Part shown: one piece after another, positions 13,763 through 36,490 of the stretch
Numbering within the stretch: position 1 is the first letter of the stretch
How the letters are laid out: every line of letters begins with the position of its first letter
Assembly: GCA_014239155.1 (NCBI GenBank)
Contig: JAAZZQ010000056.1
Location: 1 to 64,000 of the forward strand
Origin: Lachnospiraceae bacterium
GTDB taxonomy: Bacteria > Bacillota > Clostridia > Lachnospirales > Lachnospiraceae
Direction: 5' to 3'
Length of the DNA: 64,000 nucleotides
Notes under the pieces: generated by a model
What the model was told of the DNA's origin: nothing
Seen by the model: only the letters and a program-made list of their open reading frames with translations
The model's database searches: none
Translations under genes and position numbers: made by a program

Positions 13763-15901
13763 CTAATGTGTAGTTTCCAATTCTTTTTGTTTTTTGTACA
13801 GGAGACTCCAATGATTTATTTTATCAATCTCTCCATCAATTTCATACTTTTCAAGTACATCTGGAGTTGAAACGTACATATAACGTACTCTTTTTTCATT
13901 GGCTCCAATCTCAGCTAGTCCTTTGTCTGTAGCAATAACTCCAATGTTTTTTCTAATAGTTGCAATTAAATCTTGATGACATACTGGAGCGCTGCTTGTA
14001 ACCATATTCTCATGCGAATCATATGGCTCTTTAACAAACAAAATAGGATAAGAAGTATCTATCATATTTCCATCAGAGTTATATAGTTTTTCTGTTATGC
14101 CATGATCCGAAGTAATGACAATCAATGCATCCTCATATTTTCCCAGCTTTTTTAGTTGCGCTATATATTCATATACAATTTTCATAGCACCTTTTCGCTG
14201 TGAAACGCCACTTCCCCAATGTTCATCCCTCCTAGCATCATATTCAATGTGTTGAAAATCCTCCGTCATTGTATAGGGTGGATGTCCACCATGCATATGA
14301 ATAAACCGAAATGTACTCTTTTTGTCTTCCTTAGAGACACTCACCCCTTCTCTTACCAGCCTATGATAAAAAGGTAAATCATCTTCTATATTTACTATTT
14401 TATCATTTACAGTCAACAACGCAATATCACTTGTATCATAAATATAATAATATTTCACTGCAAGAGGAGCCATCTTATACATAGAACACTGTTTCATCAG
14501 TGAAAACAAATCTATCATACTACATGTCCTTTGTATGCCTTCTTCATAATTGGATATTATATCTTTCATTTGCTCTGCGACATATCGTTTATCTGTGTAT
14601 ACACCAATATCATATCCTGCATCGCGAATATCCGTCAATAAATTTGTGTTATCATATGCGTATTGTACATAATCTATGTGACTGTCTTCATCAAACGCAG
14701 ATCCAGTAAGTAGGAACGGAATACTATCATATGTTGGATTAAATGTACTTGCTGCATTTTTATAAAACACAAAATCATTTAAAGGCTGAAAAAAGTTTTT
14801 ATCCTCCTCCAGTATTTCATCAACATAAATTCCATCAAATTTATCTAAGACAAAAATAACAATATTATCCTTTTCTCCAACATCAAGCATCCCATCTGTC
14901 ATCAATATCATCTCATCTTTTGATGAAATTTCCTCAGCAGTAATAAAGAGTGTTCCAAGCGTTACTATCTGAATCAATATAATCCAAATGCTTACAGTTC
15001 TCATTAATTTCTCAAAAAATGCATGTTTTTTCCATGCAAGAAATACAAATATACCAATCAAAACAAACCATACAATAAAATTAATGATTATGCTTGTATT
15101 ACTATATACATTGTTTCCTGTTCCATCCAAAACCCCCATACTTCCATTGAAAAACAAACCCTGAATATATCCTGCAGTCAAAAAAGCAAACATAAAAATT
15201 AAATATATATTGAGATGCTCCTTATTTAAATATAGTATCATTCCTGCCATGAGCATCAAGACTACAATCACTCCTGACAGCAGCAATTTTCCAAAGAAAT
15301 ACCAGTACGGTAAAGGAAAATCCTTCGCATTATTTAGATAAAGTTCATTTGGTGTGAAAATCACCACTGTTATTAGATAGTATAACAAAATCGGCAGAAT
15401 TTGTCTTGCTTTCTGTTTGATCGAATCCTTACTTAAATCAATCAAGCAGTCTGATTTTATCTTTTTTAAAAAGACCGCCGACATAACAATCATTACTGCC
15501 AGCACAAACGCAATGCAAAATGTTTTATTATTTAATTTACGAACAAAGAAAAATGTAAAACTAAACGCGAGAAAGAAAGAAGAATCAAAATAACAAATCA
15601 ATTTTATATCGTTCTCCCGCAATAATAATTTCAGCAAAATTGGCAATGCAACAGCTATTATAATCAAGGGAACACTATAGTGTAATAAAGTAATAAATTT
15701 TGCATTCCAAAAACTTTCTATTAGATTTTCCTTTCTATATCCCAAATAATACTTTGCGAAAGATAGTATCCATAAATTTATACAAAAATAAAATGACCAT
15801 TTCCAAAAAAAATATTTTTTTGTCTTTATAAAATCTATTTCTACAGCAGACAACAAGCTGAATATTGCTATCATTAGAATGATTCCATAGTTATAAAACA
15901 T
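13763..15901 (-). CDS. LTA-synthase/EptA-like membrane phosphotransferase (alkaline phosphatase superfamily), copy 1
   Basis: This 712-residue protein has about eight to ten membrane helices up to residue 320, then an extracellular alkaline-phosphatase-fold domain. Expected metal-site elements are L-D-K-F-D-G (352-357), H-M-H-G-G-H (535-540) and S-D-H-G (598-601). The nucleophile region reads N-P-T-Y-D-S-I-P, with Thr390 in the position used by LtaS and EptA. A Cys, as in true sulfatases, is absent. Such enzymes move phospho-head groups (glycerol phosphate or phosphoethanolamine) onto surface polymers. AGGAGG precedes the ATG. It is a paralogue of the 23600-25717 gene; the two flank the AEP module. 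Confidence 0.85.
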   Translation of the reverse strand: MFYNYGIILMIAIFSLLSAVEIDFIKTKKYFFWKWSFYFCINLWILSFAKYYLGYRKENLIESFWNAKFITLLHYSVPLIIIAVALPILLKLLLRENDIKLICYFDSSFFLAFSFTFFFVRKLNNKTFCIAFVLAVMIVMSAVFLKKIKSDCLIDLSKDSIKQKARQILPILLYYLITVVIFTPNELYLNNAKDFPLPYWYFFGKLLLSGVIVVLMLMAGMILYLNKEHLNIYLIFMFAFLTAGYIQGLFFNGSMGVLDGTGNNVYSNTSIIINFIVWFVLIGIFVFLAWKKHAFFEKLMRTVSIWIILIQIVTLGTLFITAEEISSKDEMILMTDGMLDVGEKDNIVIFVLDKFDGIYVDEILEEDKNFFQPLNDFVFYKNAASTFNPTYDSIPFLLTGSAFDEDSHIDYVQYAYDNTNLLTDIRDAGYDIGVYTDKRYVAEQMKDIISNYEEGIQRTCSMIDLFSLMKQCSMYKMAPLAVKYYYIYDTSDIALLTVNDKIVNIEDDLPFYHRLVREGVSVSKEDKKSTFRFIHMHGGHPPYTMTEDFQHIEYDARRDEHWGSGVSQRKGAMKIVYEYIAQLKKLGKYEDALIVITSDHGITEKLYNSDGNMIDTSYPILFVKEPYDSHENMVTSSAPVCHQDLIATIRKNIGVIATDKGLAEIGANEKRVRYMYVSTPDVLEKYEIDGEIDKINHWSLLYKKQKELETTH

Positions 15902-15911: not shown

Positions 15912-16847
15912 CTATCTCCCCATAAATAGCTTGTTTGTAACTGAATTTCTCTGCAAAAGTTTACTCAATACAAAGGACAACCCTGTCAATACAATCGACA
16001 TTAAAAAGATATATGTTGCCTTGATCAAATACCGATAAGAATCTGAAATTCTAAAGTATTCCTTAATCCAAAAGAAAAATACAATTCCCGTGGATAAATA
16101 AATACTAATGGACACCTCGCCTAATCTGCGCAAAACGCTAAAATGATAACGCTCACTTAGACGATAAAAACCTACAATAACCAATGCGCTCCCAATTGTC
16201 CCTGTAATCAATTCTATGCATCCTAGTCTTAAAGTTAAAATATAAAGTCCTCCAAGTGACAATAACAATAATATTTTAGGAATTGCCTTTATTTTGTCCA
16301 AAAGATTATATTGATTTAACAATATTCCCATAATAAAAAAAGGCAGCATTCTCTTTGTTCCTGAATAATTTCCAATATTAGGCATAATATAATTTACGCA
16401 CAATAGAACAATATATCCCAAAATATGACTGCGAAATAGATATTTTGTGATAAAACCATATAAAGAACAATAAAATACTGCCCACAAAAACCAATTGGAA
16501 AAAGCTGTATAGCGTAAATATCCACCCAAACTTATATCGGAATATCCACCTAACAATACATCACACATCCATGTCAAAAATCCCCACGCCGCACATGGTA
16601 TCATAATTCCCTTTATCTTTGATAGTATACCATGAATCAAATCATATCGATTTAGCGAATACCAAAACAAATATCCACTAAGTATCATAAAAAGCGGCAT
16701 ATGACATCCATAGATTAACTGAAATACTTCATTTGCACGAAATTCATAATTCTGTGGTGTCCCATATTGAATACTATGACCCAGCACTACAGAATATATT
16801 GCCAATCCTCGTGCTGCATCTACCCAATTCTCTCGTATCTTCTTCAA
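15912..16847 (-). CDS. Acyltransferase 3 family membrane O-acyltransferase
   Basis: The 311 residues open with N-W-V-D-A-A-R-G-L-A-I-Y-S-V-V-L-G-H, the N-terminal signature of acyltransferase-3 proteins including the conserved R and H. H-M-P-L-F-M-I-L-S-G-Y-L-F follows, then eight or more further helices. These enzymes transfer acetyl or other acyl groups to surface sugars. The start codon is TTG at 16847, with GGGAGG 8 nt upstream. It is 26 bp after aepY and 10 bp before the LTA-synthase-like gene, so O-acylation is produced with the AEP module. Confidence 0.88.
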   Translation of the reverse strand: MKKIRENWVDAARGLAIYSVVLGHSIQYGTPQNYEFRANEVFQLIYGCHMPLFMILSGYLFWYSLNRYDLIHGILSKIKGIMIPCAAWGFLTWMCDVLLGGYSDISLGGYLRYTAFSNWFLWAVFYCSLYGFITKYLFRSHILGYIVLLCVNYIMPNIGNYSGTKRMLPFFIMGILLNQYNLLDKIKAIPKILLLLSLGGLYILTLRLGCIELITGTIGSALVIVGFYRLSERYHFSVLRRLGEVSISIYLSTGIVFFFWIKEYFRISDSYRYLIKATYIFLMSIVLTGLSFVLSKLLQRNSVTNKLFMGR

Positions 16848-16873
16848 TTTTAGGACCTCCCATTTTACTTGTA

Positions 16874-18004
16874 TTATTCTTTCTGCAACGACTCCATAAA
16901 ATGAATCCCATTTTCTTGTGCGCTCTCTTTGGGTCTGCCAAGATCCGCTCTTGAATCAAGCGCAGTCATCACTTCAATCATCGAAAGTTCCTGTCTATTG
17001 CTTGTTGTCTGCAATGCCTTTTCCAGATCAGAATCTGTACGAACTGTATCTACATGCTTATATCCACAGGATTTTGCAATCTGCGCATATGTTTGCCCGC
17101 TAAAACCTGTGGGTATCGCTCCAACGGACTCATGCGCAGCATTGTTAATTACAATATGCAGAAAATTACTTGGCGACTGTTTTGCAATAAACGCCAATGC
17201 TCCCATATGCATCATTACTGCGCCGTCACCATCAACACACACAATGCGTCTTGCCTTATCCGCCTGCGCAACTCCATATGCAATCATAGAGGCATGTCCC
17301 ATACCTCCCACTGTCATAAAAAGTCTATCATGATTTCCATACAGTGCTTCACACTGTTCATATAACTCCCTCGATATTTTTCCTGTTGTCGATATAATAT
17401 AAGAATTTTGATAAACATTTTGAAGAATTACTCTTAGTGCGTCTTCACGCACAAGATTATAACCATTTTTCCATAAAAACTCTTGTTCTTTTTCAAAAGT
17501 CCCTTTCTTAACAATAATTGCATATTGTCTGTTATCACACATAACATGGTGGGCTTCTTCAAAAATCGCACTTAGTTGTTCTTTTGTTGTTGTCTCGTCA
17601 ATCACCGCATAGGACACATTCATCACTTCCAAAAGTGTATCGGTAACTTTTCCCTGATATACATGCTGTGGCTCATCTTTTTTGCCTGGTTCTCCACGCC
17701 ATCCAACTACAAACAACATTGGAATGCCATACACTTCGCAGTTGGCAATTGATGCCAACGGATTGATAATATTTCCAAGACCTGAATTTTGAAGGTACAC
17801 CAAACAAGGCTGTTTTGTCGCCAAATAAATTCCTGTTGCAAGACCAACCGCTGCACCTTCATTTGCAGTCACATAATGTCTAAATTGTTTGCCAGCGTCT
17901 AACATAATGGCATCACAAAATTGTTTTAATGTGGAGTCTGGAACGCCTGCAACAGTATTGATTCCTATCTTTTTTAACTCTTGCAAAAAGATACTTGCCT
18001 TCAT
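16874..18004 (-). CDS. aepY: Phosphonopyruvate decarboxylase
   Basis: This 376-residue TPP enzyme carries G-V-P-D-S-T-L-K near the start, the activating Glu49 in T-A-N-E-G-A-A-V-G-L-A, and the TPP/Mg motif G-D-G (259-261) with N-N about 26 residues later. Phosphonopyruvate decarboxylases carry these strings at the same places. It converts phosphonopyruvate to phosphonoacetaldehyde and CO2, which pulls the unfavourable mutase reaction forward. The ATG shares one base with the stop of the cytidylyltransferase gene and has GAGGAGGAG upstream. Sulfopyruvate decarboxylase is the only close alternative, and the adjacent mutase and transaminase argue against it. Confidence 0.93.
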   Translation of the reverse strand: MKASIFLQELKKIGINTVAGVPDSTLKQFCDAIMLDAGKQFRHYVTANEGAAVGLATGIYLATKQPCLVYLQNSGLGNIINPLASIANCEVYGIPMLFVVGWRGEPGKKDEPQHVYQGKVTDTLLEVMNVSYAVIDETTTKEQLSAIFEEAHHVMCDNRQYAIIVKKGTFEKEQEFLWKNGYNLVREDALRVILQNVYQNSYIISTTGKISRELYEQCEALYGNHDRLFMTVGGMGHASMIAYGVAQADKARRIVCVDGDGAVMMHMGALAFIAKQSPSNFLHIVINNAAHESVGAIPTGFSGQTYAQIAKSCGYKHVDTVRTDSDLEKALQTTSNRQELSMIEVMTALDSRADLGRPKESAQENGIHFMESLQKE

Positions 18005-18732
18005 TAATTCTCCTCCTCTGTATCTGCATTTGTTATCAATGCCTGTTTATCCAGTGCGACTAGCTCTTCCACTGTGTCTATTTCTACAATCTGTCCCTCT
18101 TCCACTGGATATATTTTTAGCCGAAAACAATCTAAATTCCAATCCACGACCTCATCCCAATATACATTGGCATTTTCCTGCAGAAGATACGCCTGCTCAA
18201 TCTTATCTGCAAGAATCACAGCATCCTCTTTCTTAAAAAATGAGATGCCAACCATGTTGTAAGTATCCGTTCCGCCTTTTCCTACCTTGGAAATATACCC
18301 ATTTTTTAATTCAAATATCCAATCATCTGAATATCCTTTTACCATTTTTCCATAATACCCCGAACGATCCAGCGTTTTATGAAATATCGTTAAATCTGAA
18401 ACCAGCAGATCTGCTTCGCATATAAAGCAGTCTGCCTTTCCTAGTATATCCTTTACAGCATAGATAGAAGAGATATTATTTTTTTCCAAATAATCCGGGT
18501 TTTCCAACAAGCGTATTCCCTGATACTTCCTGCACAAATAAGAAAACTGTTCTTTTAAATGTCCAACAATAATATAGATTTCTGTTACTCCCCTGCTTTG
18601 CAACCCTTCAATAACCGTCTCAATCATTGGTTTTCCAAACACTTTTATGAGCGGTTTTGGTCTCTTTAAAGTCAGTGGAAGCATTCTAGTGCCAAGCCCT
18701 GCTGCCATAATGATTCCAATCTCTTTTTCCAT
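18004..18732 (-). CDS. LicC/PntC-like CTP:phospho(no)-alcohol cytidylyltransferase
   Basis: This 242-residue nucleotidyltransferase has the G-L-G-T-R-M loop (12-17), L-K-R-P-K-P-L-I-K, C-E-A-D-L-L near residue 105 and W-D-E-V near 195. The pattern fits LicC (phosphocholine) and PntC (2-aminoethylphosphonate) cytidylyltransferases rather than glucose-1-phosphate enzymes. Between aepX and aepY, the expected product is CMP-AEP. In some bacteria PntC is fused to the AEP transaminase; here they are separate. The start at 18732 has GGAG 6 nt upstream. An earlier in-frame ATG at 18765 overlaps aepX and lacks this box. Confidence 0.85.
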   Translation of the reverse strand: MEKEIGIIMAAGLGTRMLPLTLKRPKPLIKVFGKPMIETVIEGLQSRGVTEIYIIVGHLKEQFSYLCRKYQGIRLLENPDYLEKNNISSIYAVKDILGKADCFICEADLLVSDLTIFHKTLDRSGYYGKMVKGYSDDWIFELKNGYISKVGKGGTDTYNMVGISFFKKEDAVILADKIEQAYLLQENANVYWDEVVDWNLDCFRLKIYPVEEGQIVEIDTVEELVALDKQALITNADTEEEN

Positions 18733-18754
18733 ATAAATCTCCGTATCTTTATTT

Positions 18755-20053
18755 TTATAGATCATCTATCAATCTGATAATCTCCTGAAACGGCATTAAT
18801 TTTGTGTCAACTTCGAGTGCTCTGTGATTTTTTAGAATCTCAATTGCTGTACTTTGCATTGCTGGAAAAGCACTTCTTGTCAACTGATTTGCATAAATAA
18901 CAATATTAACCCCATGTTGTGCAAGTTCCGATTCTGTTACGCTATTAAATGAAGTTGGAACAACCACAATAGGCGTATCCTGGTTTGTCTTGCGGAATGT
19001 ATCACAGAATGTAAAAATTTCATCAGGAGATTTTTTTCTGGAATGAATCATAATCGCATCTGCTCCGGCATCCACATACGCAAAAGCGCGCTTTAGAGCA
19101 TCTTCCTGTCCCTTTTCCAAAATTAAACTTTCAATTCGCGCAATAATCATAAATTCTTCTGTTCGCTGTGCTCTTTTACCAGCACGTATCTTATTGCAAA
19201 AATTTTCTATAGAATCCTGTACCTGATCCACTTCTATTCCAAACAGAGAATTTTTTTTAAGCCCTGTTTTATCCTCAATAATAACGGCTGATACTCCCAT
19301 ACGCTCCAATGTCCGAACATTGTACACAAAATGTTCCACTAGCCCACCTGTATCTCCATCCAATATAATTGGCTTTGTTGTCACTTCCATCACATCATCA
19401 ATTGTACGCATCCTCGATGACATATCGACAAGTTCAATATCTGGTTTCCCTTTTGCGGTGGAGTCGCACAAGCTTGACAGCCACATTGCATCAAACTGAT
19501 CCAGTTCTCCATTATGTTCAACAACTGTCTTTTCTGCAATCAATCCAGTCAGACCACTGTGCACCTCTATCGTTTTTACCACTGGACACAATTTTAACAA
19601 TTGGCGAAGACGTTTCCTCCGATACTCTGGCATAGCGAGTCTTTCTCGAATCGTATCATCTATCTTTTTAACATTTTGATTATAAGTATAAGCAATCTCA
19701 ATTAGTTCTCCACCATACTTCTTTAAGTTTTCTATAACATTATTCCGAATTGCGCGCTCTGGTCCTTCACACCAATTATCGCCATGAATCACAAAATCTG
19801 GTTTTTTCTCTGCAATCACTTTGTCATACATAATTTCATTTTGGATAACAATAGCGCTGACAAGCCCTGTATTTCGTACAATCTGCTTTCTTTCCTCCAA
19901 AGTGATGGTTGGAAATCGATTAAACTTAATCATTGCAGCATCACTTAAAATTCCAACCGTTACCTCTCCATATTTCTTTGCCTCACGAAGAAGATTTAAA
20001 TGTCCTTCGTGTATCACATCTGTACAGAAACATGTATATACTTTCTTCATCAT
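18755..20053 (-). CDS. aepX: Phosphoenolpyruvate mutase with N-terminal cytidylyltransferase-like domain
   Basis: This 432-residue two-domain protein has an N-terminal part (1-130) of cytidylyltransferase fold with the H-E-G-H motif (15-18). The C-terminal part (about 145-432) is a PEP mutase/isocitrate-lyase barrel with D-G-D-T-G-G (232-237) and the mutase lid E-D-K-T-G-L-K-K-N-S (260-269), which separates mutases from lyases. It converts PEP to phosphonopyruvate, the committed step to C-P bonds. The fused cytidylyltransferase domain occurs in other bacterial mutases; its product here is unclear because a separate CTP enzyme follows 22 bp downstream. It overlaps aepZ by 4 bp. Confidence 0.93.
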   Translation of the reverse strand: MMKKVYTCFCTDVIHEGHLNLLREAKKYGEVTVGILSDAAMIKFNRFPTITLEERKQIVRNTGLVSAIVIQNEIMYDKVIAEKKPDFVIHGDNWCEGPERAIRNNVIENLKKYGGELIEIAYTYNQNVKKIDDTIRERLAMPEYRRKRLRQLLKLCPVVKTIEVHSGLTGLIAEKTVVEHNGELDQFDAMWLSSLCDSTAKGKPDIELVDMSSRMRTIDDVMEVTTKPIILDGDTGGLVEHFVYNVRTLERMGVSAVIIEDKTGLKKNSLFGIEVDQVQDSIENFCNKIRAGKRAQRTEEFMIIARIESLILEKGQEDALKRAFAYVDAGADAIMIHSRKKSPDEIFTFCDTFRKTNQDTPIVVVPTSFNSVTESELAQHGVNIVIYANQLTRSAFPAMQSTAIEILKNHRALEVDTKLMPFQEIIRLIDDL

Positions 20054-21234
20054 AATCCTGCCTTTCTTTGACTGTCAGCCTCTTTATAGTAAACAGGAAT
20101 CTGTACATGATATTCCCTAAGTGCCTGCTCAAATACGACAAAAAAATCAGCAATATCTTGTGCTGTGATTGCCCCTAATGCACAGAGTCGAAATGTATCC
20201 TGTGTGGATATTTTTCCCGGATAGATTGTAAATCCCCGCTCATAACAGTAATCATGAATCTTCTCAAAATCCCAGTTTGCATCCTCTGGATATTTTACAG
20301 ACACTACTAGCCCTGCCTGCAACTCTCTTTTTATAATATCTCGAAATCCAAGTTTATCCAATCCAGCATGAATTGCCTCAAAGACACTTAGATGGCGTTC
20401 CCACTTTGCCTGTTCTCCCTCAGCAAAATACTCATCCAGCGCTTGTCTTGTCGCATAGATCGTCTGAACAGGCGGTGTAAAATGCATCTCGCCAGTCTTC
20501 TCAAAAAAATGATACTGCAAATATAAATTGCAATAATAAGACCGTTTGGGATATGCTGCGGACTTTTGGATTATCTCTGTATTTCCCACAATAAAAGATA
20601 AGCCAGTCATCGCCATAAGTCCCTTCTGTGCAGATGCCATACAAAAATCTATATTTTCCTTCTCTATATCAATCGGTCTCATCGCATAAGTAGATGTTGT
20701 ATCCACTGTAAACACTGCTCCATAACGATGTGCTAGCGCGCCAATCTCTCGAATTGGATTTAATATTCCGGTTCCTGTCTCATTATGTGTTGTGTGAACA
20801 AGAGCAATATCAGGATTGTCTTTTAAAATCGCTTCTATCTTATCCAAATCTGGCAGTTCATCCACTGGAAACTTTAAATCAATATAAGGCAGATTATAAT
20901 ACGCACAGATTTCTGCTGCCCTTGTGCTGTAAGCACCATTATTTATAATCAAAATCTTCTTTTCTGCTGGCAGCAGAGAATTGAGACAAATATCTATATT
21001 GATTGTCCCTGAACCACAGAACAATACAGCCGTATACTTATTTGGATCTCCATGTACAATTCGCACCAAATCATCACGCATCTTTTTCATCATCGATGCA
21101 AATTCTTTCTCTCTCGGGCAGATGTCAGGCACAATCTGCGCCATTTTAACAGAGTCTGTCGTGGTTGCTGGTCCCGGATTTAACAAAATATTTCTCTTAA
21201 TTTTTTCACTCTTCTTTTCTATCATTTCCTGCAT
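20050..21234 (-). CDS. aepZ: 2-aminoethylphosphonate aminotransferase (biosynthetic, class V)
   Basis: This 394-residue PLP enzyme shows L-L-N-P-G-P-A at the start, F-C-G-S-G-T (phosphate grip), H-N-E-T-G-T-G, V-D-T-T-S-T-Y and A-S-A-Q-K-G-L with the Schiff-base Lys204. These are family strings of PhnW/AepZ-type 2-AEP:pyruvate aminotransferases. With AepX and AepY next door it should work in the synthetic direction, turning phosphonoacetaldehyde into 2-aminoethylphosphonate. The ATG follows the stop of the YidC-TagF-like gene with no gap. No phnX (phosphonoacetaldehyde hydrolase) is present, so degradation is unlikely. Confidence 0.92.
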   Translation of the reverse strand: MQEMIEKKSEKIKRNILLNPGPATTTDSVKMAQIVPDICPREKEFASMMKKMRDDLVRIVHGDPNKYTAVLFCGSGTINIDICLNSLLPAEKKILIINNGAYSTRAAEICAYYNLPYIDLKFPVDELPDLDKIEAILKDNPDIALVHTTHNETGTGILNPIREIGALAHRYGAVFTVDTTSTYAMRPIDIEKENIDFCMASAQKGLMAMTGLSFIVGNTEIIQKSAAYPKRSYYCNLYLQYHFFEKTGEMHFTPPVQTIYATRQALDEYFAEGEQAKWERHLSVFEAIHAGLDKLGFRDIIKRELQAGLVVSVKYPEDANWDFEKIHDYCYERGFTIYPGKISTQDTFRLCALGAITAQDIADFFVVFEQALREYHVQIPVYYKEADSQRKAGL

Positions 21235-23184
21235 TTAATAATCCTCTTCCTCCTCATGTTTCTTTTTGTACCACGCCAGCCTATCCATAATATATTGTGC
21301 CCCAATCTCTCCACTACTGCCAACATGATAAATATAGCTGTCTCTAATCTTTTCCAGAGCCTCTTTTGAAAATGCATCACTTCTCAAAAGCTCATCCACC
21401 ACTTGCGGAAGTGTTGAAAGCTTGTCCATATCGACACTTTTTCCCACTTTATCCCGAAGTTCAATATCAATTGGAGTAATCTCTAACTCTTTATAATCCT
21501 CATTCATAATCTTCATTGGTGTATTGATAAACAATGCCGGTTTTAGCGTGGCAAAAGCGTATTCAAATGCAATGCTAGACCAATCCGTAATTACAAGATC
21601 TGCCTGATATACTGTCTTATTTGACGAGAAATCCATTTGTAATTCCATATCATCACGATTGTTCATATCAAACTTTTCTTGCAGACAAATCAATCTTTCC
21701 TCTTCATGGCGCACAAACTGAGGATGCGGTCTGACAATAATGCGGTATCCCCGCCCTTGAAGCCGTTCTAGTATTTCCTCAATACAAGACACCAAAATAT
21801 TTCCCTTCTGCCAAGAAGGCGCAATCAAAATCTCTTTTACAGTCTTCTCTTTTTCATCCATCAACGCATATGCTTCAATCATATTATCGATTACGCTTGA
21901 GCCCCACTCAATAATCTTTTTCTCTGGCAGTTTATATAGTTCTTCCCGTTTTCTAATTTCTTTTGTGCAAAGATACCCAGAAGAAAAAATCGTATCAAAG
22001 TGATCAAGTGCCTCTTTTCTAAAGGTCAGATTAGGGCTGTTCACATCATGTGGCACATAGATATATTCATTGTCCTTGCGAACAAGAGAACGCTTAATAT
22101 GAAAATTCTCCAAATCAGGTGTTGTCATCACAACGACATCTGCCTCAAGTTTCATCATTAAAACAATCAACTTATTCTCGCCAATATAGTAGGGTTTAAA
22201 ACGGTCGCTCTCCATCTCAAATACTTTGTCATTTGGATCACTTGTGATATAATGAATTACCACATTTGACTTTTCTAACAACACTTCTATAATATTCTGA
22301 AAATATTTATAAAATCCATTTTTTTCTGAATAAAATACAAGCTGCATCTCATAGTCTTTAAAAAATCGTTTGTAATCTGCCTTTTCCTTCTTTTTATATG
22401 GGTCTTTCTCAAACAACTTCTTTTTATTTTTCTTCTCAAAAGCACTGGCACTTCTTAATTCCTCTCGGCTTCTCTCAAGTGCATCATAGTCAATATATTT
22501 TTTTGGATTCATAATGAAATTGAGAAAATAGAGTTGCACAACAGAAAAAAGATTACTAAATGTCCAGTAAATTCCAACTCCTGTCTTGACAAAAAAACCA
22601 AGATACAATGATAGTCCAATCGACAATATCATTGTTCCCATCTGATTCATTTTTCCCTGCTCTGCCTGTAACACATTAATTTTATTTTGTATAAAGCACA
22701 TAAACCATGCAGATAGTGCCGCCACCAAAGGAATGAAATATGCAATTCCCCCAACTTCCACTGGTACAGACGACAAATCTAAACTGCCTAACATTGTGTC
22801 AAGCACTCCTGGTTTTCCGCGAAAAATGTATTCTTCTGGATGATTAATTACCTCGATAACCCCCATCAAAAGAATAAGTTGTAACGCGAGCGGAATCAAA
22901 TCTGCAAGCGGCTGATAATGCTCTCTCTTATATAACTCATACTGCTCCTCTGAAATCTTTTCGCTGTTTCCATAATATTTTGCCTTGATAAAATTCATTT
23001 CCGGTTGCATTTTTACCATCTTAATTGAATTTTTTTGCACCCATAAGGAAACTGGCAGGAGAACGATCTTGGTTCCAAAAGTAAAGACAATAATTGATAT
23101 AAAGTAATCTGGTAAAACACGATAGCAAAAATACATCAGCCATCCAAGAATATCACCAATCAGGCCAATTATATAATTCATCAT
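21235..23184 (-). CDS. YidC/Oxa1 domain fused to a TagF/TagB-like CDP-glycerol-type transferase
   Basis: This 649-residue chimera has residues 1-225 matching YidC2/Oxa1 insertases: first helix with L-L-P-V-S-L, then K-M-Q-P-E-M, a Y-K-R-E-H-Y-Q-P-L loop, Q-L-I-L-L-M-G and Y-W-T-F-S-N-L-F-S-V-V-Q. The groove arginine of functional insertases appears as Lys39. A basic linker (225-270) leads to a GT-B-like CDP-glycerol glycerophosphotransferase domain with Y-V-P-H-D (376-380), I-A-P-S-W, R-P-H-P (485-488) and I-T-D-W-S-S (532-537). Heading the AEP genes, it is the best candidate to transfer AEP from CMP-AEP to a glycan, with the YidC part serving as membrane platform or channel. The donor is inferred; CDP-glycerol remains possible. 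Confidence 0.85.
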   Translation of the reverse strand: MMNYIIGLIGDILGWLMYFCYRVLPDYFISIIVFTFGTKIVLLPVSLWVQKNSIKMVKMQPEMNFIKAKYYGNSEKISEEQYELYKREHYQPLADLIPLALQLILLMGVIEVINHPEEYIFRGKPGVLDTMLGSLDLSSVPVEVGGIAYFIPLVAALSAWFMCFIQNKINVLQAEQGKMNQMGTMILSIGLSLYLGFFVKTGVGIYWTFSNLFSVVQLYFLNFIMNPKKYIDYDALERSREELRSASAFEKKNKKKLFEKDPYKKKEKADYKRFFKDYEMQLVFYSEKNGFYKYFQNIIEVLLEKSNVVIHYITSDPNDKVFEMESDRFKPYYIGENKLIVLMMKLEADVVVMTTPDLENFHIKRSLVRKDNEYIYVPHDVNSPNLTFRKEALDHFDTIFSSGYLCTKEIRKREELYKLPEKKIIEWGSSVIDNMIEAYALMDEKEKTVKEILIAPSWQKGNILVSCIEEILERLQGRGYRIIVRPHPQFVRHEEERLICLQEKFDMNNRDDMELQMDFSSNKTVYQADLVITDWSSIAFEYAFATLKPALFINTPMKIMNEDYKELEITPIDIELRDKVGKSVDMDKLSTLPQVVDELLRSDAFSKEALEKIRDSYIYHVGSSGEIGAQYIMDRLAWYKKKHEEEEDY

Positions 23185-23599: not shown

Positions 23600-25717
23600 T
23601 TAGGATTCATTAAGCATTTCACCACTCCAACTATTTATATCATGCACATCTCCGTCTATTGTATACTTAACATACTCTGGATACAGCTTTAAAAATGTAC
23701 GTTTTTTGTCTGGTTCTTTAGAAACTTGTTCTAGCGTTAAACCGTATTTTTTACTCTCCATCCCCATTGTTTTTACCATAGATGCCATCATCTCCGCCTG
23801 TGAGACAGGAACATCTTCTATCTGTAATTGTTCTTGATCAATATATGGCTGTTTTACTAGGATTACTGGAGAAGATACTCTTTCTGGTTTGCCTGTTTCT
23901 TCTATAAAATCTGTCTGTTGTCCGTGGTCAGCAGTAATAATAATCATTGCCTCCTCATATTTCCCTAACAACTTCAATTGGTCGATATATGCATACACAA
24001 TCTTTAGGCTTCCGCGAATTTGTGAGTACAATCCCGATTCTCTTCCTGTTTTATCGTATTTCATATCCTCAGAAAATGTATATGGCTCATGTGCGCCATG
24101 CATATGATAAAAGCGAAAGGCTTTTGTATTGTTATCTGCTATTGTCAACCCATTCTTTAACAGATTTTCTGCAAATGGATAATCATTTTCTGTATTCCAA
24201 ACTTGTGGTGCCTTCACCATGCTTTCAATATCCTCTGTGCAATATGAATAATTGTGTTTTAACATAAATGGCATTGTCTGATACAATGCACACTTCCACA
24301 TTGTAGTCATTGTTGTACCAATATCATACTTTTTTTCTACAGACGCATTATAATTGGAAATTTTATCATACAACTGATTGGAGACATAACTGGCATTTGT
24401 ATAAATTCCCACATCAAATCCTTGTTGCTTAATTTCCTGTAAAAGCGTGCTGTCACGGTAGGCATTTGGCGCATAATTTGTCCCATACTCCTCTTTCCAC
24501 TCTGTTGCCGTCAACAAATATGGGATTCCTGCCGCTGTATTTGCAAACGGTGACGTAGCATTTCTATAAAATGTAAAATCCGAAAGTGGACTGCAAAACT
24601 CCATATCTTCTTTATAAAGGGTGTCCATCCAATCGCTATCAAAACGGTCCAAAACAAATACCAAAACATTTTGATCCTTTGCAACTGCAAGAGAATTGTG
24701 AACGGTCAATGCCTCTGATTGACCAGAATCTGCCTTGTCTGTAGAAATTATTAGATACCCTAACGTCACTGTCTGAATTAGTATTATATAAATACAAATT
24801 GTTTTCCCTACTTTTATAGCAGCCTTCTTTTTAAAGCATATCACAAGCAATACTATAATCGCTGCAATCCATAAAAAACCATTTACCACTAACTTCCACG
24901 CAGACCACACTTGTACATCGCCATCTAATATCTCAAGCTTTCCATTCAAAAAAATATTTTGTATATATCCCATTAATGTAATACTCATAACAAAAAGATT
25001 CATTCCATGTACAGCGTTTTTAGGAAGGAGAAATAATTCTCCAAAAATGAAAAACACTGTTACAAGCAAAGCACTCATAATCGTAATTGCCAGAAGTGGA
25101 AAATACTTTCCAGTAAATTCACTTGGATTTCCAAGGTATAATTCATTGGGAAGAAAAATACAATGCATTACAACCCATGCCCCAATCAATGGAACTGCTT
25201 CCTTAATTGCTTGTCCAAATTCTTGTCTCTGGTAATAAACCAAATCTTTTTTTATCAGAACCTTCAATCCAACTGTCAAACCTGCACTGACGATAAAAAG
25301 AAAAAGATATGCCCTATTGCTAATTCTATTATTAATAAGAAATATCAATATTAATCCAAAAAACATCACTGCACAGAACAAATCCATTAATTGCTTATCA
25401 GAGCACCACTTTACTTTTAATAACAACACAAGCACAATAATACAAAAAAGCACAATTGGTATCCCATAGTGAATATATGTTCTAAATTCCATATCCCAAA
25501 AACTTTCCATTAAAGTGCTTTCTGTATTTCCTAGATAATATTTCACTGCGGAAAGCAAAAAATAAATACTTAGAAAAAAGAAAAAACTCACTCGAATTAT
25601 CCTTGATTGGTCGCGTTGAAAAATTTTCCAAACAAACGCAGATGCCAAAGCAAATGCAATTATAAAAATAAAAATCATATTACTCTGATGCATTGATTTC
25701 TGCCCTCTTTCATTCAT
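23600..25717 (-). CDS. LTA-synthase/EptA-like membrane phosphotransferase, copy 2
   Basis: This 705-residue paralogue of the 13763-15901 protein has the same architecture: helices to about residue 325, then an outside catalytic domain. Motifs are L-D-R-F-D (356-360), F-A-N-T-A-A-G-I-P with Thr394 as expected nucleophile, H-M-H-G-A-H and T-A-D-H-G. With Thr in place of Cys it should act as a phosphotransferase or phosphohydrolase, not a sulfatase. The ATG at 25717 has a poor ribosome site; another at 25693 has AGAGGG 9 nt upstream and may be the real start. It follows the rhamnosidase gene by 8 bp. Confidence 0.85.
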   Translation of the reverse strand: MNERGQKSMHQSNMIFIFIIAFALASAFVWKIFQRDQSRIIRVSFFFFLSIYFLLSAVKYYLGNTESTLMESFWDMEFRTYIHYGIPIVLFCIIVLVLLLKVKWCSDKQLMDLFCAVMFFGLILIFLINNRISNRAYLFLFIVSAGLTVGLKVLIKKDLVYYQRQEFGQAIKEAVPLIGAWVVMHCIFLPNELYLGNPSEFTGKYFPLLAITIMSALLVTVFFIFGELFLLPKNAVHGMNLFVMSITLMGYIQNIFLNGKLEILDGDVQVWSAWKLVVNGFLWIAAIIVLLVICFKKKAAIKVGKTICIYIILIQTVTLGYLIISTDKADSGQSEALTVHNSLAVAKDQNVLVFVLDRFDSDWMDTLYKEDMEFCSPLSDFTFYRNATSPFANTAAGIPYLLTATEWKEEYGTNYAPNAYRDSTLLQEIKQQGFDVGIYTNASYVSNQLYDKISNYNASVEKKYDIGTTMTTMWKCALYQTMPFMLKHNYSYCTEDIESMVKAPQVWNTENDYPFAENLLKNGLTIADNNTKAFRFYHMHGAHEPYTFSEDMKYDKTGRESGLYSQIRGSLKIVYAYIDQLKLLGKYEEAMIIITADHGQQTDFIEETGKPERVSSPVILVKQPYIDQEQLQIEDVPVSQAEMMASMVKTMGMESKKYGLTLEQVSKEPDKKRTFLKLYPEYVKYTIDGDVHDINSWSGEMLNES

Positions 25718-25725: not shown

Positions 25726-28700
25726 CTATTTTATATCTGTCTTAACACCCAACGCAATATGATATTCATATGTCCCGGATCCCAACTCCATATTTTGATA
25801 TTGTGCATCTGGTAAGGTCACTGTCGCAGTCGTATTTGCTGGAATTACAAAGCGAAATACGAATTCATCTTCATTCACTTCCCAACTACTCTCAATCGTT
25901 CCATATACACATTCATAGCTTCCCTTTGCATAGGTTAGCCCACCACCTGGCAATGGACACAAATAAAAATGTTTAAATCCCGGACTTGTCTCATCTCTTT
26001 TAATACCAAGCACATCACTATAGAACCACTGCCCTACAGTCCCAAGTCCAAAATGATTGAGCGATCCGTGAATTGCGTATGTCCCATCTTCTGTGTCATA
26101 TCGACCGTTCCACGCTTCTGTAATCGTAGTCTGGTCTAATGCAAGCATATCATTCCATGATGGATAGGTATCCTGACGAAGAATGCGATATGCAGTGTCA
26201 ATATAACCATATTTGCAGAGCACAGGCAACAAAAACTGCGTGGCAATATACCCTGTATTTAGGTGATTATCATTTGCTATCACAGCACTATTTAGGCAGG
26301 CTGCTCCTTTTTCCTCCAATTCATCTGGATACAGACCATAGGCAAGCCCAAGAGTATAAGCCGATTGTAGCCAGCAATCAATCGATCCATCTTCATTGAT
26401 ATAATGTTCTTGCCATGCTCTTTTATATTGATTGTAAATCATTGTATATTTGTTGGCAATCTCGTTCTCGCCAATATCAGCACTCATTTTTGCCAAAAGC
26501 CTCGCCACATAAGCACACTGCGCTGTATTTGCAATATCATCATCAAGCCCTGATATTGCATTGTGGTCGCTGTAGTGATGCTCTGTGCGCACATAATCCT
26601 CACTTGTATCCACTAGATGGTCAACATATCTACACATCGCATCCAAATTCTCTCGAATTAATTCTGCATCTCCATATTGTTGATACAGTTCCCACACCAA
26701 AATAACACCTGCGTCACTCCAACCGTTCGCTGCACTGCTCATGCCAACACTTGGCGCAATTTCGGGAAATGCGCCGTTTTCATCCTGTCCTGCAATTAAC
26801 ATCATTGTATATTTCCGAAGATAATTATAGATGTCTGCATTGTATGACGCTGTATTTGCAAACACCTGTGCATCTCCTGTCCAACCAAAACGTTCATCCC
26901 GCTGTGGGCAGTCCGTTGGAACATCTAAGAAATTGCTGCGCTGTGTCCAATAAATACTTTCATACAACCGGTTTACCTTCTCATCCGAGCAGAAAAAGGA
27001 ACCTGTATTTTTATTGTCTGTGCTAAGAACCAAACCACTGATATTTTCTGACGCAATTGGTTCTTCTATTCCAGAAACCTGCACATAGCGAAACCCTCTG
27101 CACACAAGACTTGGGGTGTAAGTCTCCTCACCGGCACCACTCATAATATAGTAATCGGTATTGTCTGCCGTAAATAGATTCTGTGTCCAAATTGTTCCAA
27201 CGGTATCATCCTTGCAGGACAGTTTCTCATCGTTAAGTGCTTCCGCATAGCGCATTGTCACCACCTGTCCCGCTTTTCCAGTTGTATCCCTAAAAGTAAT
27301 CTCACAATTTCCATTAAAATTTTGTCCAAAATCATATACATAGGTGCCCTTTATTGGCTCTGTAATCTGAATTGGCGCAATTCTTTGAAGACATTTTACT
27401 GCGGGCGCCTCACAGGCTTTTTTATCCAATCCATTATATTCTGTAAATACATCTACTTGCTGCCATTGACTGGCATTATATCCAGATTCGCTCCAACCAG
27501 CCTGTTCCTTTGTGGCATCATAAACCTCCCCTAGAAACATATCATCATTTCTAATTGGTCCATCTGCATAAGCTTGCCATGTGTGATCTGTCACTATGGT
27601 TTGGCGGCTGCCATCTGCATACTGTATCACCAGCTTTGCCTGAAATGCAATATTTTCTCCCTCATGCGTGTTCGATTTATTATATCTTCCATGCCCAAGC
27701 ACTGCACCAATTACATTTTCTTCTCCTAGTTCCTTTAAAAGCGAAATCACATCATAAGTTCTATAATAAGTCTCTTTGCTGTAAATCGAACGCCCCGGTG
27801 ACAAATACTCCTCACAAATATCTTTTCCATTCAGATAAATCCGATAATCTCCAAGCGCTGTGGCATATAGTCTTGCTGTGACAATACTAGATGCACTCTC
27901 ACAGATAAAATTACGTCGCAGCATTGGGGCTGGCTCTTCTACTCCTGACGTGAGCAGAAATCCCGAAGACACTTCGCACCACCCATCTAAAACTTTTATA
28001 TAATAGGGTGAAAAAATGTTATTTTGACTGTTATTAAATCCTTCTTCATAAACAATACTATTGTCCTTCTTATTTATAATGCTAATATTGTCATAATAAG
28101 CATAGTATGGTCCTCTGTCAGTCCAAAAACCAATATTTTCAACATCTTTCTCTTTTCTTATGCTTGTTTCCATAACCTGTATTCCATCGACATAAGCATG
28201 TAGTGTTGTACCATTCACCTCCAGCACTACGCAATGTTCCTTTTCGATAAAGGTCTCCAGACTGCCAAACACTTCTGAGAAATCCTGATTTAATTTCACT
28301 GACTGCGCATATTCTTCCCCTTCCAAAAATTCTACAACAGAAAAAACAATGTCTTCTCCTAACGTATTAAAATCACATCGAAAATAATCTCCATATTGAT
28401 TTGTATCCATTCCCCATACAAACCCCGAATATGTTTTTCCCAATTTCACATTATATGTAATCTGATACGCTACATGGGTTACTGCTTTTATATTTGGCTC
28501 TTTTCTAATCCCAATCCAAGAAGCCCCTTCCCAATCCTTATCGGTCACTCCCATTTCAAAAAACGCTTCTTCATGGCTTTCTAACTGCTCTCCACCCTTG
28601 TCCCACACATACACCTTCCACCGATAGCTTGTCTCCGGCATTAAATCTGCTCCCTCATAAGGAATAGCAACAGATATGCCAGAAGTTCTTTTGCCACTAT

Positions 28701-28992
28701 CCCACACATACTCCTGCGCTTCCAACTGCTTTGCTGTCTTTGCTACAACGATTCTGTATGCTGTCTGCAACTGCCCTTCTACATCAGATTCCATGCGCCA
28801 GCCAAATTGCGGTGTATTTTCAATACCAATTGGATTTTGTTGATAGTTTACTGTCAAGTTTGTTATTTCTGTAACTTTCCCCGCGTCTTCTTTATTCCAA
28901 ACTGCAACTTTTGTGTCATGACACCCTGCACTCCACACAACTGTCAATAAAATTACAAAACAAAATATTATCTTTTGTATTCTAAAACGCAT
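25726..28992 (-). CDS. GH78 alpha-L-rhamnosidase, lipoprotein, with inserted laminin-G-like domain
   Basis: This 1088-residue protein starts with a signal and lipobox S-A-G-C (Cys24), so it is anchored on the outer face. An Ig-like domain (about 45-150) comes first. A concanavalin/laminin-G-like insert (about 165-350) follows, then the GH78 beta-domains, and an (alpha/alpha)6 barrel with D-C-P-Q-R-D-E-R-F-G-W-T-G-D (694-707), the GH78 signature with catalytic acidic residues. Members cleave alpha-L-rhamnose with inversion. As first gene of a glycan-biosynthesis operon it may trim or recycle a rhamnose-containing surface polymer rather than feed on dietary glycan (inference). The SD GGAG lies about 6 nt upstream of the ATG. 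Confidence 0.9.
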   Translation of the reverse strand: MRFRIQKIIFCFVILLTVVWSAGCHDTKVAVWNKEDAGKVTEITNLTVNYQQNPIGIENTPQFGWRMESDVEGQLQTAYRIVVAKTAKQLEAQEYVWDSGKRTSGISVAIPYEGADLMPETSYRWKVYVWDKGGEQLESHEEAFFEMGVTDKDWEGASWIGIRKEPNIKAVTHVAYQITYNVKLGKTYSGFVWGMDTNQYGDYFRCDFNTLGEDIVFSVVEFLEGEEYAQSVKLNQDFSEVFGSLETFIEKEHCVVLEVNGTTLHAYVDGIQVMETSIRKEKDVENIGFWTDRGPYYAYYDNISIINKKDNSIVYEEGFNNSQNNIFSPYYIKVLDGWCEVSSGFLLTSGVEEPAPMLRRNFICESASSIVTARLYATALGDYRIYLNGKDICEEYLSPGRSIYSKETYYRTYDVISLLKELGEENVIGAVLGHGRYNKSNTHEGENIAFQAKLVIQYADGSRQTIVTDHTWQAYADGPIRNDDMFLGEVYDATKEQAGWSESGYNASQWQQVDVFTEYNGLDKKACEAPAVKCLQRIAPIQITEPIKGTYVYDFGQNFNGNCEITFRDTTGKAGQVVTMRYAEALNDEKLSCKDDTVGTIWTQNLFTADNTDYYIMSGAGEETYTPSLVCRGFRYVQVSGIEEPIASENISGLVLSTDNKNTGSFFCSDEKVNRLYESIYWTQRSNFLDVPTDCPQRDERFGWTGDAQVFANTASYNADIYNYLRKYTMMLIAGQDENGAFPEIAPSVGMSSAANGWSDAGVILVWELYQQYGDAELIRENLDAMCRYVDHLVDTSEDYVRTEHHYSDHNAISGLDDDIANTAQCAYVARLLAKMSADIGENEIANKYTMIYNQYKRAWQEHYINEDGSIDCWLQSAYTLGLAYGLYPDELEEKGAACLNSAVIANDNHLNTGYIATQFLLPVLCKYGYIDTAYRILRQDTYPSWNDMLALDQTTITEAWNGRYDTEDGTYAIHGSLNHFGLGTVGQWFYSDVLGIKRDETSPGFKHFYLCPLPGGGLTYAKGSYECVYGTIESSWEVNEDEFVFRFVIPANTTATVTLPDAQYQNMELGSGTYEYHIALGVKTDIK

Positions 28993-29349: not shown

Positions 29350-30024
29350 CTAATAAGTTACCTCTCCATCATGGTCAATCATAGACACATAAGATACACC
29401 CTCAAGGCTGCTTAATTTTTGTACAAGACCGCCGCTGTCCTTCACTCGCAACTCCATAACAATACTTGTTCGCTCTGGCGTAATATTTCTTGATTTTACT
29501 TTAAAATACTTTGTGTATTCTAACACAATCTTGCTAATGTCCTCCTCCATATCGCAATACATGGTCTGCACCATCAATATCATAGGTGCCTGAACCGTGG
29601 GAAACTTATCCATCACAAAAATCATTGCTGTCACAACGATTGACAAGATTCCAGCCACATAAAACAATCCTACACCACATATAATTCCTATTGCTAATGC
29701 CCAGAACATAAAAACCAAGTCCAAGGGATCTTTTACCGCAGTCCGAAATCTAACAATGGACAATGCACCTACCATACCAAGGGAAACCACAATACTTGAC
29801 TGAATGGTAATAATAACAGCCGCTGTAATGATTGCTGTCGCTGCAAGCGAGATATTAAAACTTTTATTATAAAAAGTTTTTCGTGCAAAAATCTTATAGA
29901 TAAAATAAATATACAATGCGAAAACCAAAGTAATGACAAAGATTAGTATTATCTCCGACAGGGATAAATCAGCCATCGTAAATGTGTTAACAAAGGACTT
30001 TTTTAAAACATCATTAAACTTCAT
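29350..30024 (-). CDS. DUF4956 membrane protein
   Basis: The 224 residues contain three or four membrane helices in the first 130 residues, with the strongly conserved S-L-G-M-V-G-A-L-S-I-V-R-F-R-T-A-V-K-D-P of DUF4956. A soluble C-terminal domain of ACT-like size (about 150-224) follows. DUF4956 genes are commonly found beside VTC-domain and CotH genes, as here. The function is not established; a channel or a regulator of the VTC enzyme has been suggested by context only. It overlaps the VTC gene by 4 bp and is the last gene of its unit. Confidence 0.88.
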   Translation of the reverse strand: MKFNDVLKKSFVNTFTMADLSLSEIILIFVITLVFALYIYFIYKIFARKTFYNKSFNISLAATAIITAAVIITIQSSIVVSLGMVGALSIVRFRTAVKDPLDLVFMFWALAIGIICGVGLFYVAGILSIVVTAMIFVMDKFPTVQAPMILMVQTMYCDMEEDISKIVLEYTKYFKVKSRNITPERTSIVMELRVKDSGGLVQKLSSLEGVSYVSMIDHDGEVTY

Positions 30025-30722
30025 AGTGTATTTCCTCCTGCAATGCTGTATTTTCTACACATATAGTATTTAGAATACGTTGTCTGACACAGCCGTTCTG
30101 TCTGGACCGCCGCATAGATAAAATCTGGAATCAGTTCGTCAAACTTAACTTCCAAAATATGTTCCCCTAAAGGCATCACTGGTCTTGTGACAATATTTTC
30201 ATCCAAAAATCCTTCTACACAACTTGCAGAACAGATATTTGTATCAAAAGTTACTCTGACATTGCCGTCTCTATATATAAAAGGAATCCTATCATATTCC
30301 ACAATCACTTTGGGTCTTAGAAGCCGTGTATTCTGCCATAAGCAAAACTTGCGATACACATCTGCATCTACTGCATCCATATCCACTATCAATCCCTGCA
30401 TCATTTTCCTGCACAGTGCTTCATCAATTCTGCACGAAAGTTTTTTTGTTTTTCCATGCTCTTTTTTCTTTAGTTCTAATCGAATGTAAGTTTTGTTATA
30501 ATTATAAATCCTCAGCCGAAATTTCTCACGCGGATCATTTCCATTGATATTGTCATAAAGACATCTGTCTTGATAATCATCAAAATACAAACTTCTTATT
30601 CTATATCGCTTATCTTCACCAACATATGGATCAAATTCCAGCAATCCTTGTATCTTATTTGCAATCAATGTTAGCTGCTGTTCACTACAAATATATTTAT
30701 ATTCATGTCGGTATTCACTCAT
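30021..30722 (-). CDS. VTC-domain (polyphosphate polymerase-like) protein
   Basis: This 233-residue single-domain protein has a tunnel fold of the VTC/triphosphate tunnel metalloenzyme group. Characteristic basic and acidic strings are R-H-E-Y-K-Y near the start, Y-R-I-R-S-L-Y-F-D-D, K-F-R-L-R-I-Y-N-Y, I-R-L-E-L-K-K-K, V-E-Y-D-R-I-P-F and L-E-V-K-F-D-E-L-I-P. VTC proteins in yeast polymerise ATP phosphate into polyphosphate; bacterial ones are mostly untested. It overlaps the CotH gene by 8 bp and DUF4956 by 4 bp, so the three probably act together at the membrane. Confidence 0.88.
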   Translation of the reverse strand: MSEYRHEYKYICSEQQLTLIANKIQGLLEFDPYVGEDKRYRIRSLYFDDYQDRCLYDNINGNDPREKFRLRIYNYNKTYIRLELKKKEHGKTKKLSCRIDEALCRKMMQGLIVDMDAVDADVYRKFCLWQNTRLLRPKVIVEYDRIPFIYRDGNVRVTFDTNICSASCVEGFLDENIVTRPVMPLGEHILEVKFDELIPDFIYAAVQTERLCQTTYSKYYMCRKYSIAGGNTL

Positions 30723-36464: not shown

Positions 36465-36490
36465 ATTCCTATGTTCTCACTTTACTTTCT

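Follow-up and report, generated by a model that had tools for sequence, protein, structure and literature searches.

The stretch of DNA analysed here (the window) comprises 64,000 nucleotides at the start of contig JAAZZQ010000056.1 from a Lachnospiraceae bacterium, and the gene under study lies at positions 21235..23184 on its minus strand. It encodes a protein of 649 residues in which a YidC domain (residues ~1-225) is joined to a TagF-like transferase domain (residues ~272-640), as recognised by Pfam, NCBIfam and AlphaFold/Foldseek, and it heads a tight operon for cytidine monophosphate (CMP)-linked 2-aminoethylphosphonate (AEP). Comparison with relatives suggests that these two domains very probably belong to a three-part partnership, whose third member is an enzyme of the sulfatase superfamily. 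The strongest evidence for this partnership comes from permuted fusions. A full trans-membrane relay that decorates the cell surface, in which the fusion would be the inner loading half, is somewhat favoured as an account of what the three parts may do together.

Relatives of the fusion were collected from three samples. An order sample of 392 genomes, searched at a threshold of 1e-30, gave 32 genomes with a match; 26 of them, the window's genome included, carry the fusion, and 6 carry only a free-standing TagF-like protein. A relative is encoded in at least 580 stretches of GTDB contigs, and the best 80 of these were fetched. A contig from a Lachnospiraceae metagenome-assembled genome carries a 100% match to the fusion. 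Both domains are encoded in all 80 fetched loci, one of which (L065) is the window gene itself, while another (L078) is split across two frames. In a phylum sample of 398 genomes, both domains were matched only in G000 and G052, which belong to the window's own family. The fusion is a member of a clostridial family. Chance or an assembly error is excluded, because both domains are encoded in all the fetched loci and in 25 further genomes of the order. A search of this kind had been proposed in a preliminary description of this DNA, made from its letters alone, which had joined YidC to a cytidine diphosphate (CDP)-glycerol-type transferase in one open frame. The joining is real and its coordinates are right, the strand being minus; frame 1 of the plus strand at 21235-23184 is full of stops.

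Four relatives are triple fusions, and they occur in two domain orders. The order YidC-TagF-sulfatase is found in L105 (1241 residues) and L109 (1359 residues), and the order sulfatase-YidC-TagF in L142 (1192 residues) and L130 (1180 residues, running to the end of its stretch). Pfam sees only the sulfatase and YidC parts of L130, and its TagF-like part was recognised by BLAST and by our own profile. YidC is also joined directly to the sulfatase part in 8 of the 392 order genomes, where PF02096 finds the YidC domain in every case; L056, L058 and L227 are such YidC-sulfatase proteins of 912-923 residues by Pfam. Of eight loci with a free-standing TagF-like gene, seven have a YidC-sulfatase gene within 3 kb, and within 10 kb phosphoenolpyruvate (PEP) mutase is present in four and choline kinase in three. 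L232 provides a further pair of this kind. The sulfatase-superfamily protein, fused to YidC-TagF in four relatives, had been overlooked as the key partner in the preliminary description. At L058, L059, L060 and L061, two YidC-sulfatase genes, not one, accompany the free-standing TagF-like gene.

The topology of the triple fusions was assessed by a simple, rough hydropathy scan; in L142 and L130 it fails to pick up one segment of YidC. YidC proteins have their N-terminus outside and their C-terminus inside. In L142 and L130, the scan gives a positive N-terminus, five transmembrane segments, a sulfatase region of ~400 residues, YidC with its positive hairpin, and a TagF-like tail. In L105 and L109, five or seven transmembrane segments lie between TagF and the sulfatase region. 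Odd numbers of segments precede the sulfatase domain in all four proteins, and with this orientation of YidC all four are predicted to have TagF on the inner side of the membrane and the sulfatase domain on the outer side. In other words, two different domain orders lead to the same predicted arrangement.

The proposed relay consists of three steps. The TagF-like domain would move AEP from CMP-AEP onto a lipid acceptor at the inner leaflet, after which the YidC domain would carry the head group of the loaded lipid across the membrane. SulfA, SulfB or both, the two sulfatase-superfamily proteins of the window, would then attack the phosphonate with a threonine, release the lipid alcohol and transfer AEP to a surface glycan. 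LtaS and EptA transfer glycerophosphate and phosphoethanolamine from lipids. The translocator step is proposed in line with the scrambling of lipids by Escherichia coli YidC in liposomes, as reported in an excerpt of PMC10491306. Judging by the supply genes that adjoin it in relatives, the same machine appears to have phosphocholine, hydroxyethylphosphonate or an aminoalkyl phosphate as its cargo there. A more general idea can be offered tentatively, namely that a YidC fold has been turned from an insertase into a head-group translocator within a TagF-like/LtaS-like machine that loads AEP or any of these three groups onto a carrier lipid and takes it across the membrane, thereby decorating clostridial surfaces.

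A simpler alternative is a one-step reaction in the manner of LicD, in which the TagF-like domain would put AEP directly on a cytosolic lipid-linked glycan, the YidC domain would anchor or guide, and the sulfatase-like proteins would act otherwise in the same glycan pathway. It is established that enzymes of the TagF family work on cytosolic lipid-linked polymers, and the two flippase-like proteins and many glycosyltransferases of the window are in keeping with such a route. The fusion also occupies the place expected for LicD in a lic-like gene set (L103), and in none of the 26 fusion genomes does LicD lie within 10 kb of it. LicD genes are present in 12 of these genomes at E 0.001 (11 above cut-off), and in two they are on the contig of the fusion, more than 18 kb away. 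The absence of LicD, on which the preliminary description drew, holds for the window's contig; elsewhere in this genome, outside that contig, two LicD genes are present. One-step transfer leaves the recurring sulfatase partner, the YidC-sulfatase proteins and the four triple fusions unexplained. Because the sulfatase protein is fused to YidC-TagF in those four relatives, such transfer is considered less likely than the relay, and it is rather unlikely on the whole. The earlier model of a membrane-embedded CMP-AEP:glycan transferase is supported in part: the two domains do form one protein with intact transferase motifs, encoded by the first gene of an AEP operon, but the family is not AEP-specific and the sulfatase partner favours the relay.

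In the window, SulfA (13763..15901, minus strand) and SulfB (23600..25717, minus strand, upstream of the fusion) flank the fusion and the AEP genes, one on each side. Both match Pfam PF00884 and share the motifs of our partner alignment A2, and both are candidates for the outer transferase. SulfA is polytopic, and Thr390 of its sulfatase/LtaS-like domain, also modelled with AlphaFold, is the expected nucleophile. Neighbours were counted in six-frame profile scans, the picking of open reading frames having missed genes beneath long antisense frames, such as the PEP mutase gene at L036. The profiles were our own and were built from the fetched loci, which therefore match them by construction; Pfam and NCBIfam counts over whole genomes serve as the independent check. 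With our profiles, 19 of the 26 order-sample genomes have a sulfatase-superfamily gene no more than 10 kb from the fusion, and 17 have one within 3 kb. Pfam PF00884 alone recovers a neighbour within 10 kb for 11 of the 26 (9 above cut-off), the number of PF00884 matches per fusion genome ranging from 0 to 11. Six of the seven fusions that lack such a neighbour by our profiles lie less than 1 kb from a contig end.

The sequence of the partner places it near enzymes that act on lipid head groups. Alignment A2 holds 35 rows, namely 33 of the 61 listed partners plus SulfA and SulfB, and its invariant positions (35/35) include N346, D353, T390, N451, P479, K483, H535, H540, D599, H600, G601 and K624. 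Compared with solved sequences, the A2 profile matches LtaS (2w5q) first (E 5.6e-11), then sulfatases and phosphonate monoester hydrolase. The AlphaFold model of SulfA (predicted local distance difference test, pLDDT, 87.0; predicted template modelling score, pTM, 0.81) resembles YejM most in Foldseek, followed by sulfatases, phosphonate monoester hydrolase, LtaP/LtaS and MCR-1. Thr300, Asp475 and His476 of LtaS, and the nucleophilic threonine of LtaS and EptA/MCR enzymes, are described in a section of PMC7576196. A true formylglycine sulfatase would have Cys or Ser as nucleophile and is made unlikely by the Thr of all 35 partners. This threonine puts the partner on the LtaS/EptA/YejM side. 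In a divergent partner set (A3), which aligns with the main set at an hhalign probability of 96.9 and is counted as sulfatase superfamily, the nucleophile position is Thr in five of six proteins and Ser in one; the only A3 member scanned with Pfam (L045) gave no match at E 0.01. It is possible that the partner acts as a hydrolase instead of a transferase.

Both domains of the fusion itself are well recognised. Pfam 60KD_IMP (YidC, PF02096) covers residues 27-222 (E 6.9e-30; 104.6 bits against a cut-off of 35), Glyphos_transf (PF04464) covers residues 415-552 (E 5.5e-8; 32.6 bits against 22.1), and TIGR03592 yidC_oxa1_cterm exceeds its NCBIfam cut-off. The LicD domain PF04991 is absent from the Pfam matches at E 0.01. 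Structure prediction, which had been suggested for both domains, recovers both folds in Foldseek, with TagF 3l7k as the top match and YidC 6al2 and 3wo7 for the other part. In the TagF-like domain, H379, R485-P-H487-P and D534-W-S536 are invariant in all 104 fusion rows, from which L078 was left out and in which the window protein is counted twice, as WIN and L065. These His, HP and D-x-S motifs align with four TagF-like proteins from the window's own genome and presumably correspond to the catalytic residues of Staphylococcus epidermidis TagF.

The YidC domain deserves separate attention. The preliminary description had taken Lys39, in place of the usual groove arginine, as a sign of a repurposed fold. 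This argument is weak and was rejected for the TagF-fused family, in which 95 of the 103 aligned fusion rows have Lys at this position and the other 8 have Arg, so that a positive charge is always kept. Housekeeping YidC proteins have Arg in 14, Lys in 4, Tyr in 5 and Asn in 5 cases at the aligned column (n=28); since they vary there, either the column is no strict marker or its alignment is imperfect. A different set of residues, N52, Y90, Q166 and N211, is invariant in all 24 TagF-fused rows (22 genes, two entered twice) and variable among the 28 housekeeping proteins, suggesting a special ligand for the TagF-fused kind. Only Y90 and N211 of these four are common to sulfatase-fused YidC, and the two fused kinds have K/R86, Y90 and N211 in common, a single protein departing from this at 86. 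The YidC tree resolves three clades, comprising 24 TagF-fused rows (support 1.0), 13 sulfatase-fused rows (1.0) and 28 housekeeping rows (0.82). A common origin of the two fused kinds was also considered; the tree is unrooted and indicates no sister pair among the three clades.

These data bear on another explanation, in which the YidC part would be a true insertase or assembly factor that inserts or holds the polytopic sulfatase partner and serves as a tether for the TagF-like enzyme, lipids not being moved. The positive groove residue, kept in 103/103 rows, is consistent with this function, as is the polytopic nature of the partner, which forms one chain with YidC in the YidC-sulfatase proteins. 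Nevertheless, an insertase dedicated to a single client would be odd, and a separate housekeeping YidC is present in 29 of the 32 genomes examined, the remaining three (71-80% completeness) showing only the fused copy. The four residues that are invariant in the TagF-fused kind but vary in housekeeping copies point, moreover, to a special ligand. An insertase function of this type is thus improbable, and head-group translocation within the relay is preferred for the YidC domain.

The operon downstream of the fusion provides the proposed substrate. The stop of the fusion directly abuts the start of PhnW/AepZ, 2-aminoethylphosphonate aminotransferase (20050..21234; TIGR03301, 466.9 bits against a cut-off of 360.8), and the genes that follow overlap by 1-11 bp, all on the minus strand. 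They encode, in order, a CTP_transf_like domain and PEP mutase in one protein (18755..20053; TIGR02320, 412.2 bits against 319.55; PF01467, PF13714), a PntC-like nucleotidyltransferase (18004..18765; Pfam NTP_transferase / MobA-like NTP transferase) and phosphonopyruvate decarboxylase (16874..18004; TIGR03297, 441 bits against 312.5). The curated NCBIfam cut-offs are exceeded by all except the nucleotidyltransferase, for which no equivalog lies above cut-off among the 25 NCBIfam matches listed. It is expected to make CMP-AEP, a role taken from its context and from part of PMC6697681. The Pfam and NCBIfam matches agree with the earlier assignment of CMP-AEP synthesis to the genes directly downstream of the fusion. 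The next gene after the decarboxylase encodes a membrane acyltransferase 3 (15912..16847, minus strand; PF01757).

Supply genes for head groups of this type recur beside the fusion in other genomes. Within 10 kb, our profiles find PEP mutase in 8 of the 26 order-sample genomes, choline kinase in 4 and a nucleotidyltransferase-CobD-like protein in 3, and TIGR02320 and PF01633 return the same 8 and the same 4 genomes for the first two. Any supply gene is present in 15 of the 26, and a supply gene or nucleotidyltransferase in 17. At 20 housekeeping-YidC loci from 20 of these genomes, used as a control, every supply class and the sulfatase scored 0/20; none of these control loci is a glycan cluster, and the flanks of several are short, the smallest measuring 2.2 kb. 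Among 78 GTDB loci, a set skewed toward close relatives of the window gene, the counts within 10 kb are 36 for PEP mutase, 11 for CobD, 4 for choline kinase and 53 for sulfatase; the window gene itself (L065) and L124, whose protein is identical to that of L041, were dropped from this set. Genome-wide, PEP mutase is found in 43 of the 392 genomes, that is, in 12 of 26 with the fusion against 31 of 366 without it. The PEP mutase gene aepX, for which a count had been suggested, is near the fusion in fewer than half of the order-sample fusion genomes.

The nature of the supply pathway varies within the family. Choline kinase and nucleotidyltransferase genes adjoin the fusion in L053, L054, L103 and L111, and in L103 the fusion, choline kinase, nucleotidyltransferase and a BCCT transporter are consecutive. 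In L035, L041, L122 and others, the nucleotidyltransferase is fused to a CobD/HisC-like pyridoxal phosphate (PLP) domain. A choline-kinase identity was considered for these fusions of ~603 residues and rejected, as Pfam and NCBIfam recognise the CobD/HisC-like PLP domain in them, with NCBIfam scores that fall short of the curated cut-offs. Tde1415 is likewise a nucleotidyltransferase joined to a PLP enzyme, according to an excerpt of PMC6697681. On the alcohol that these fusions might make, a literature search on serine-phosphate decarboxylation gave nothing useful among the matches listed. L045 combines PEP mutase, phosphonopyruvate decarboxylase and a nucleotidyltransferase-iron alcohol dehydrogenase fusion (best NCBIfam match the PsrA family, below cut-off), a gene set that would fit hydroxyethylphosphonate.

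In the fusion tree, drawn without support values and with L065 kept and L078 left out, the AEP, CobD and choline labels are mixed, and the AEP loci L143 and L144 lie inside a CobD group. Supply pathways change while the fusion stays, and its chemistry therefore probably concerns a CMP/CDP-linked phosph(on)ate whose alcohol or amine varies. An AEP-only function was rejected, choline kinase or CobD-like supply genes adjoining other family members. The earlier proposal of CMP-AEP as substrate thus suits the window, where the fusion heads an AEP operon, but does not extend to the family as a whole.

The variety of supply genes also bears on the family name of the TagF-like domain, which would suggest a CDP-glycerol or CDP-ribitol teichoic acid polymerase with incidental AEP neighbours. 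PF04464 is indeed the family of the glycerophosphotransferases, and the fusion agrees with it in the H, HP and D-x-S motifs. TagD-family matches below cut-off occur near the fusion in G051 (a frame of 481 residues, 49.8 bits) and G390, and 19 kb away in G151; the match in G390 is the CTP_transf half of a PEP mutase protein. Above the cut-off of 165.4 bits, however, TagD is found in only 3 of the 26 genomes, each time on a contig other than that of the fusion, and AEP genes adjoin the fusion on several separate branches of its tree. A polymerase of this type is very improbable. The preliminary description would have been contradicted by homologues sitting mostly with tagD and not aepX; instead, TagD is confined to those other contigs, and PEP mutase is near the fusion in 8 genomes. 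In G051, a protein of 475-481 residues with a sub-cut-off TagD-family part lies between the fusion and PEP mutase (contig C24:32922-33188; L051:15297-16724).

Several observations weigh against the relay or against parts of it. The AlphaFold model of the fusion predicts the domains well but leaves their mutual placement uncertain (mean pLDDT 87.5, pTM 0.61), and the hydropathy scan gives SulfA and SulfB 9 and 10 transmembrane segments, two counts that are at odds. Sulfatase-fused YidC domains have no positive charge at the groove column (Asn in 11, Gln in 2; n=13). Among the 19 sulfatase neighbours, 8 rest on our own profiles, some of which were built from those very loci, and L035 shows no sulfatase neighbour in flanks of more than 8 kb. 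The controls, which lie outside glycan clusters and in several cases have short flanks, are compatible with general co-location in such clusters. Of the 12 fusion genomes in the order sample that contain PEP mutase, 8 have it near the fusion. L034, L043 and L046 have no recognised supply pathway in flanks of more than 6.5 kb, the only candidate in L034 being a short nucleotidyltransferase-like frame. On contig C3 of G072 (~51105-53125), PEP mutase adjoins LicD, and the fusion (L046) lies on another contig without supply genes, so LicD may serve AEP in this genome. At L062, the AEP operon includes a TagF-like gene but has no sulfatase gene in its vicinity, and the three YidC-sulfatase genes of the same genome (L230, L231 and L233) have no TagF-like gene nearby. 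Finally, L226, from another class, has an AEP operon whose last genes are a TagF-like one, with 38% identity to the window domain, and two sulfatase-like ones; no YidC lies nearby, and YidC is therefore not strictly required.

Further genes were noted near the fusion and elsewhere in the window. A gene for a small S26 signal peptidase, no more than 3.5 kb away from the fusion, is present in 5 of the 26 order-sample genomes and 13 of the 78 GTDB loci, against none of the 20 controls (for example L034:8996-9481, L035:11442-11927 and L043:6255-6713; Pfam-confirmed for L034 and L043), and a link to the machine is possible. Beside the fusion locus L042, a protein of 730 residues (16707-18899) combines a nucleotidyltransferase, an RmlD-like epimerase and a phosphoribosyltransferase. 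Much of the remaining window looks like a surface-glycan cluster, with a sugar-1-phosphate transferase, WecG/TagA, heptose genes and the glycosyltransferases and flippase-like proteins mentioned above. Amid these glycan synthesis genes, positions 25726-28992 encode a large alpha-L-rhamnosidase-type protein. At 29350-32430, a DUF4956 membrane protein, a VTC-domain protein and a CotH-kinase protein follow one another, perhaps a polyphosphate or phosphorylation unit beside the glycan genes. At 35928-40735, an SIS isomerase, an HAD phosphatase, a PfkB kinase, an RfaE-domain-II nucleotidyltransferase and GT9 fit the synthesis of nucleotide-activated heptose, here in a Lachnospiraceae genome.

The route of AEP from CMP-AEP to surface molecules is largely open, and PMC6697681 describes as enigmatic the steps by which phosphonates are tailored once PEP mutase has acted. 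The fusion family offers a named, testable candidate for this route in many gut Clostridia, and, if the proposal is true, would supply a missing last step of bacterial AEP biosynthesis in those Clostridia that carry it. Additionally, a job other than insertion is proposed for a YidC fold, and the domain fusions are evidence of a link between an LtaS-like enzyme on the outside and CDP-alcohol chemistry on the inside. Hosts and phages can see both AEP and phosphocholine on cell surfaces. No description of a YidC-TagF or YidC-sulfatase fusion was found in the open-licence PMC literature, among the matches listed, subscription journals not being covered.

By most of the features tested, each domain fits a known family, while the presumed substrate of the TagF-like domain differs from its family name and the YidC and LtaS-like activities are putative. 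With TagF/TarL/TagB (PF04464), the fusion shares the fold (3l7k), the His, HP and D-x-S motifs and the CDP-alcohol logic; unlike those enzymes, it is joined to YidC, and its neighbours make CMP-AEP, CDP-choline or similar compounds, with no TagD above cut-off beside it. Its YidC domain has the fold, cytosolic hairpin and positive groove residue of YidC/Oxa1 (PF02096), but forms a separate clade with invariant polar residues of its own and is a second copy beside housekeeping YidC in most genomes. The partner resembles LtaS, EptA-MCR and YejM of the alkaline phosphatase superfamily in its N-terminal transmembrane region and its domain with invariant Thr, Asp and His, and differs in that it adjoins, or is fused to, YidC and TagF-like domains.

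At the level of whole pathways, three-component trans-membrane glycosylation relies on a charging enzyme, a flippase and an outer transferase. The proposed logic is the same, with a lipid loaded inside, flipped and used for transfer outside, whereas a phosph(on)ate instead of a sugar would be moved here and the parts are fused; we know of no parts that the two systems have in common. The kinase, transporter and nucleotidyltransferase of L103 recall the Lic pathway (LicA-LicB-LicC-LicD), and the Ppm, Ppd, PhnW and PntC-like genes of the window recall the Pnt pathway (Ppm-Ppd-AepZ-PntC). What sets the present system apart is that the fusion appears to stand in the place of LicD.

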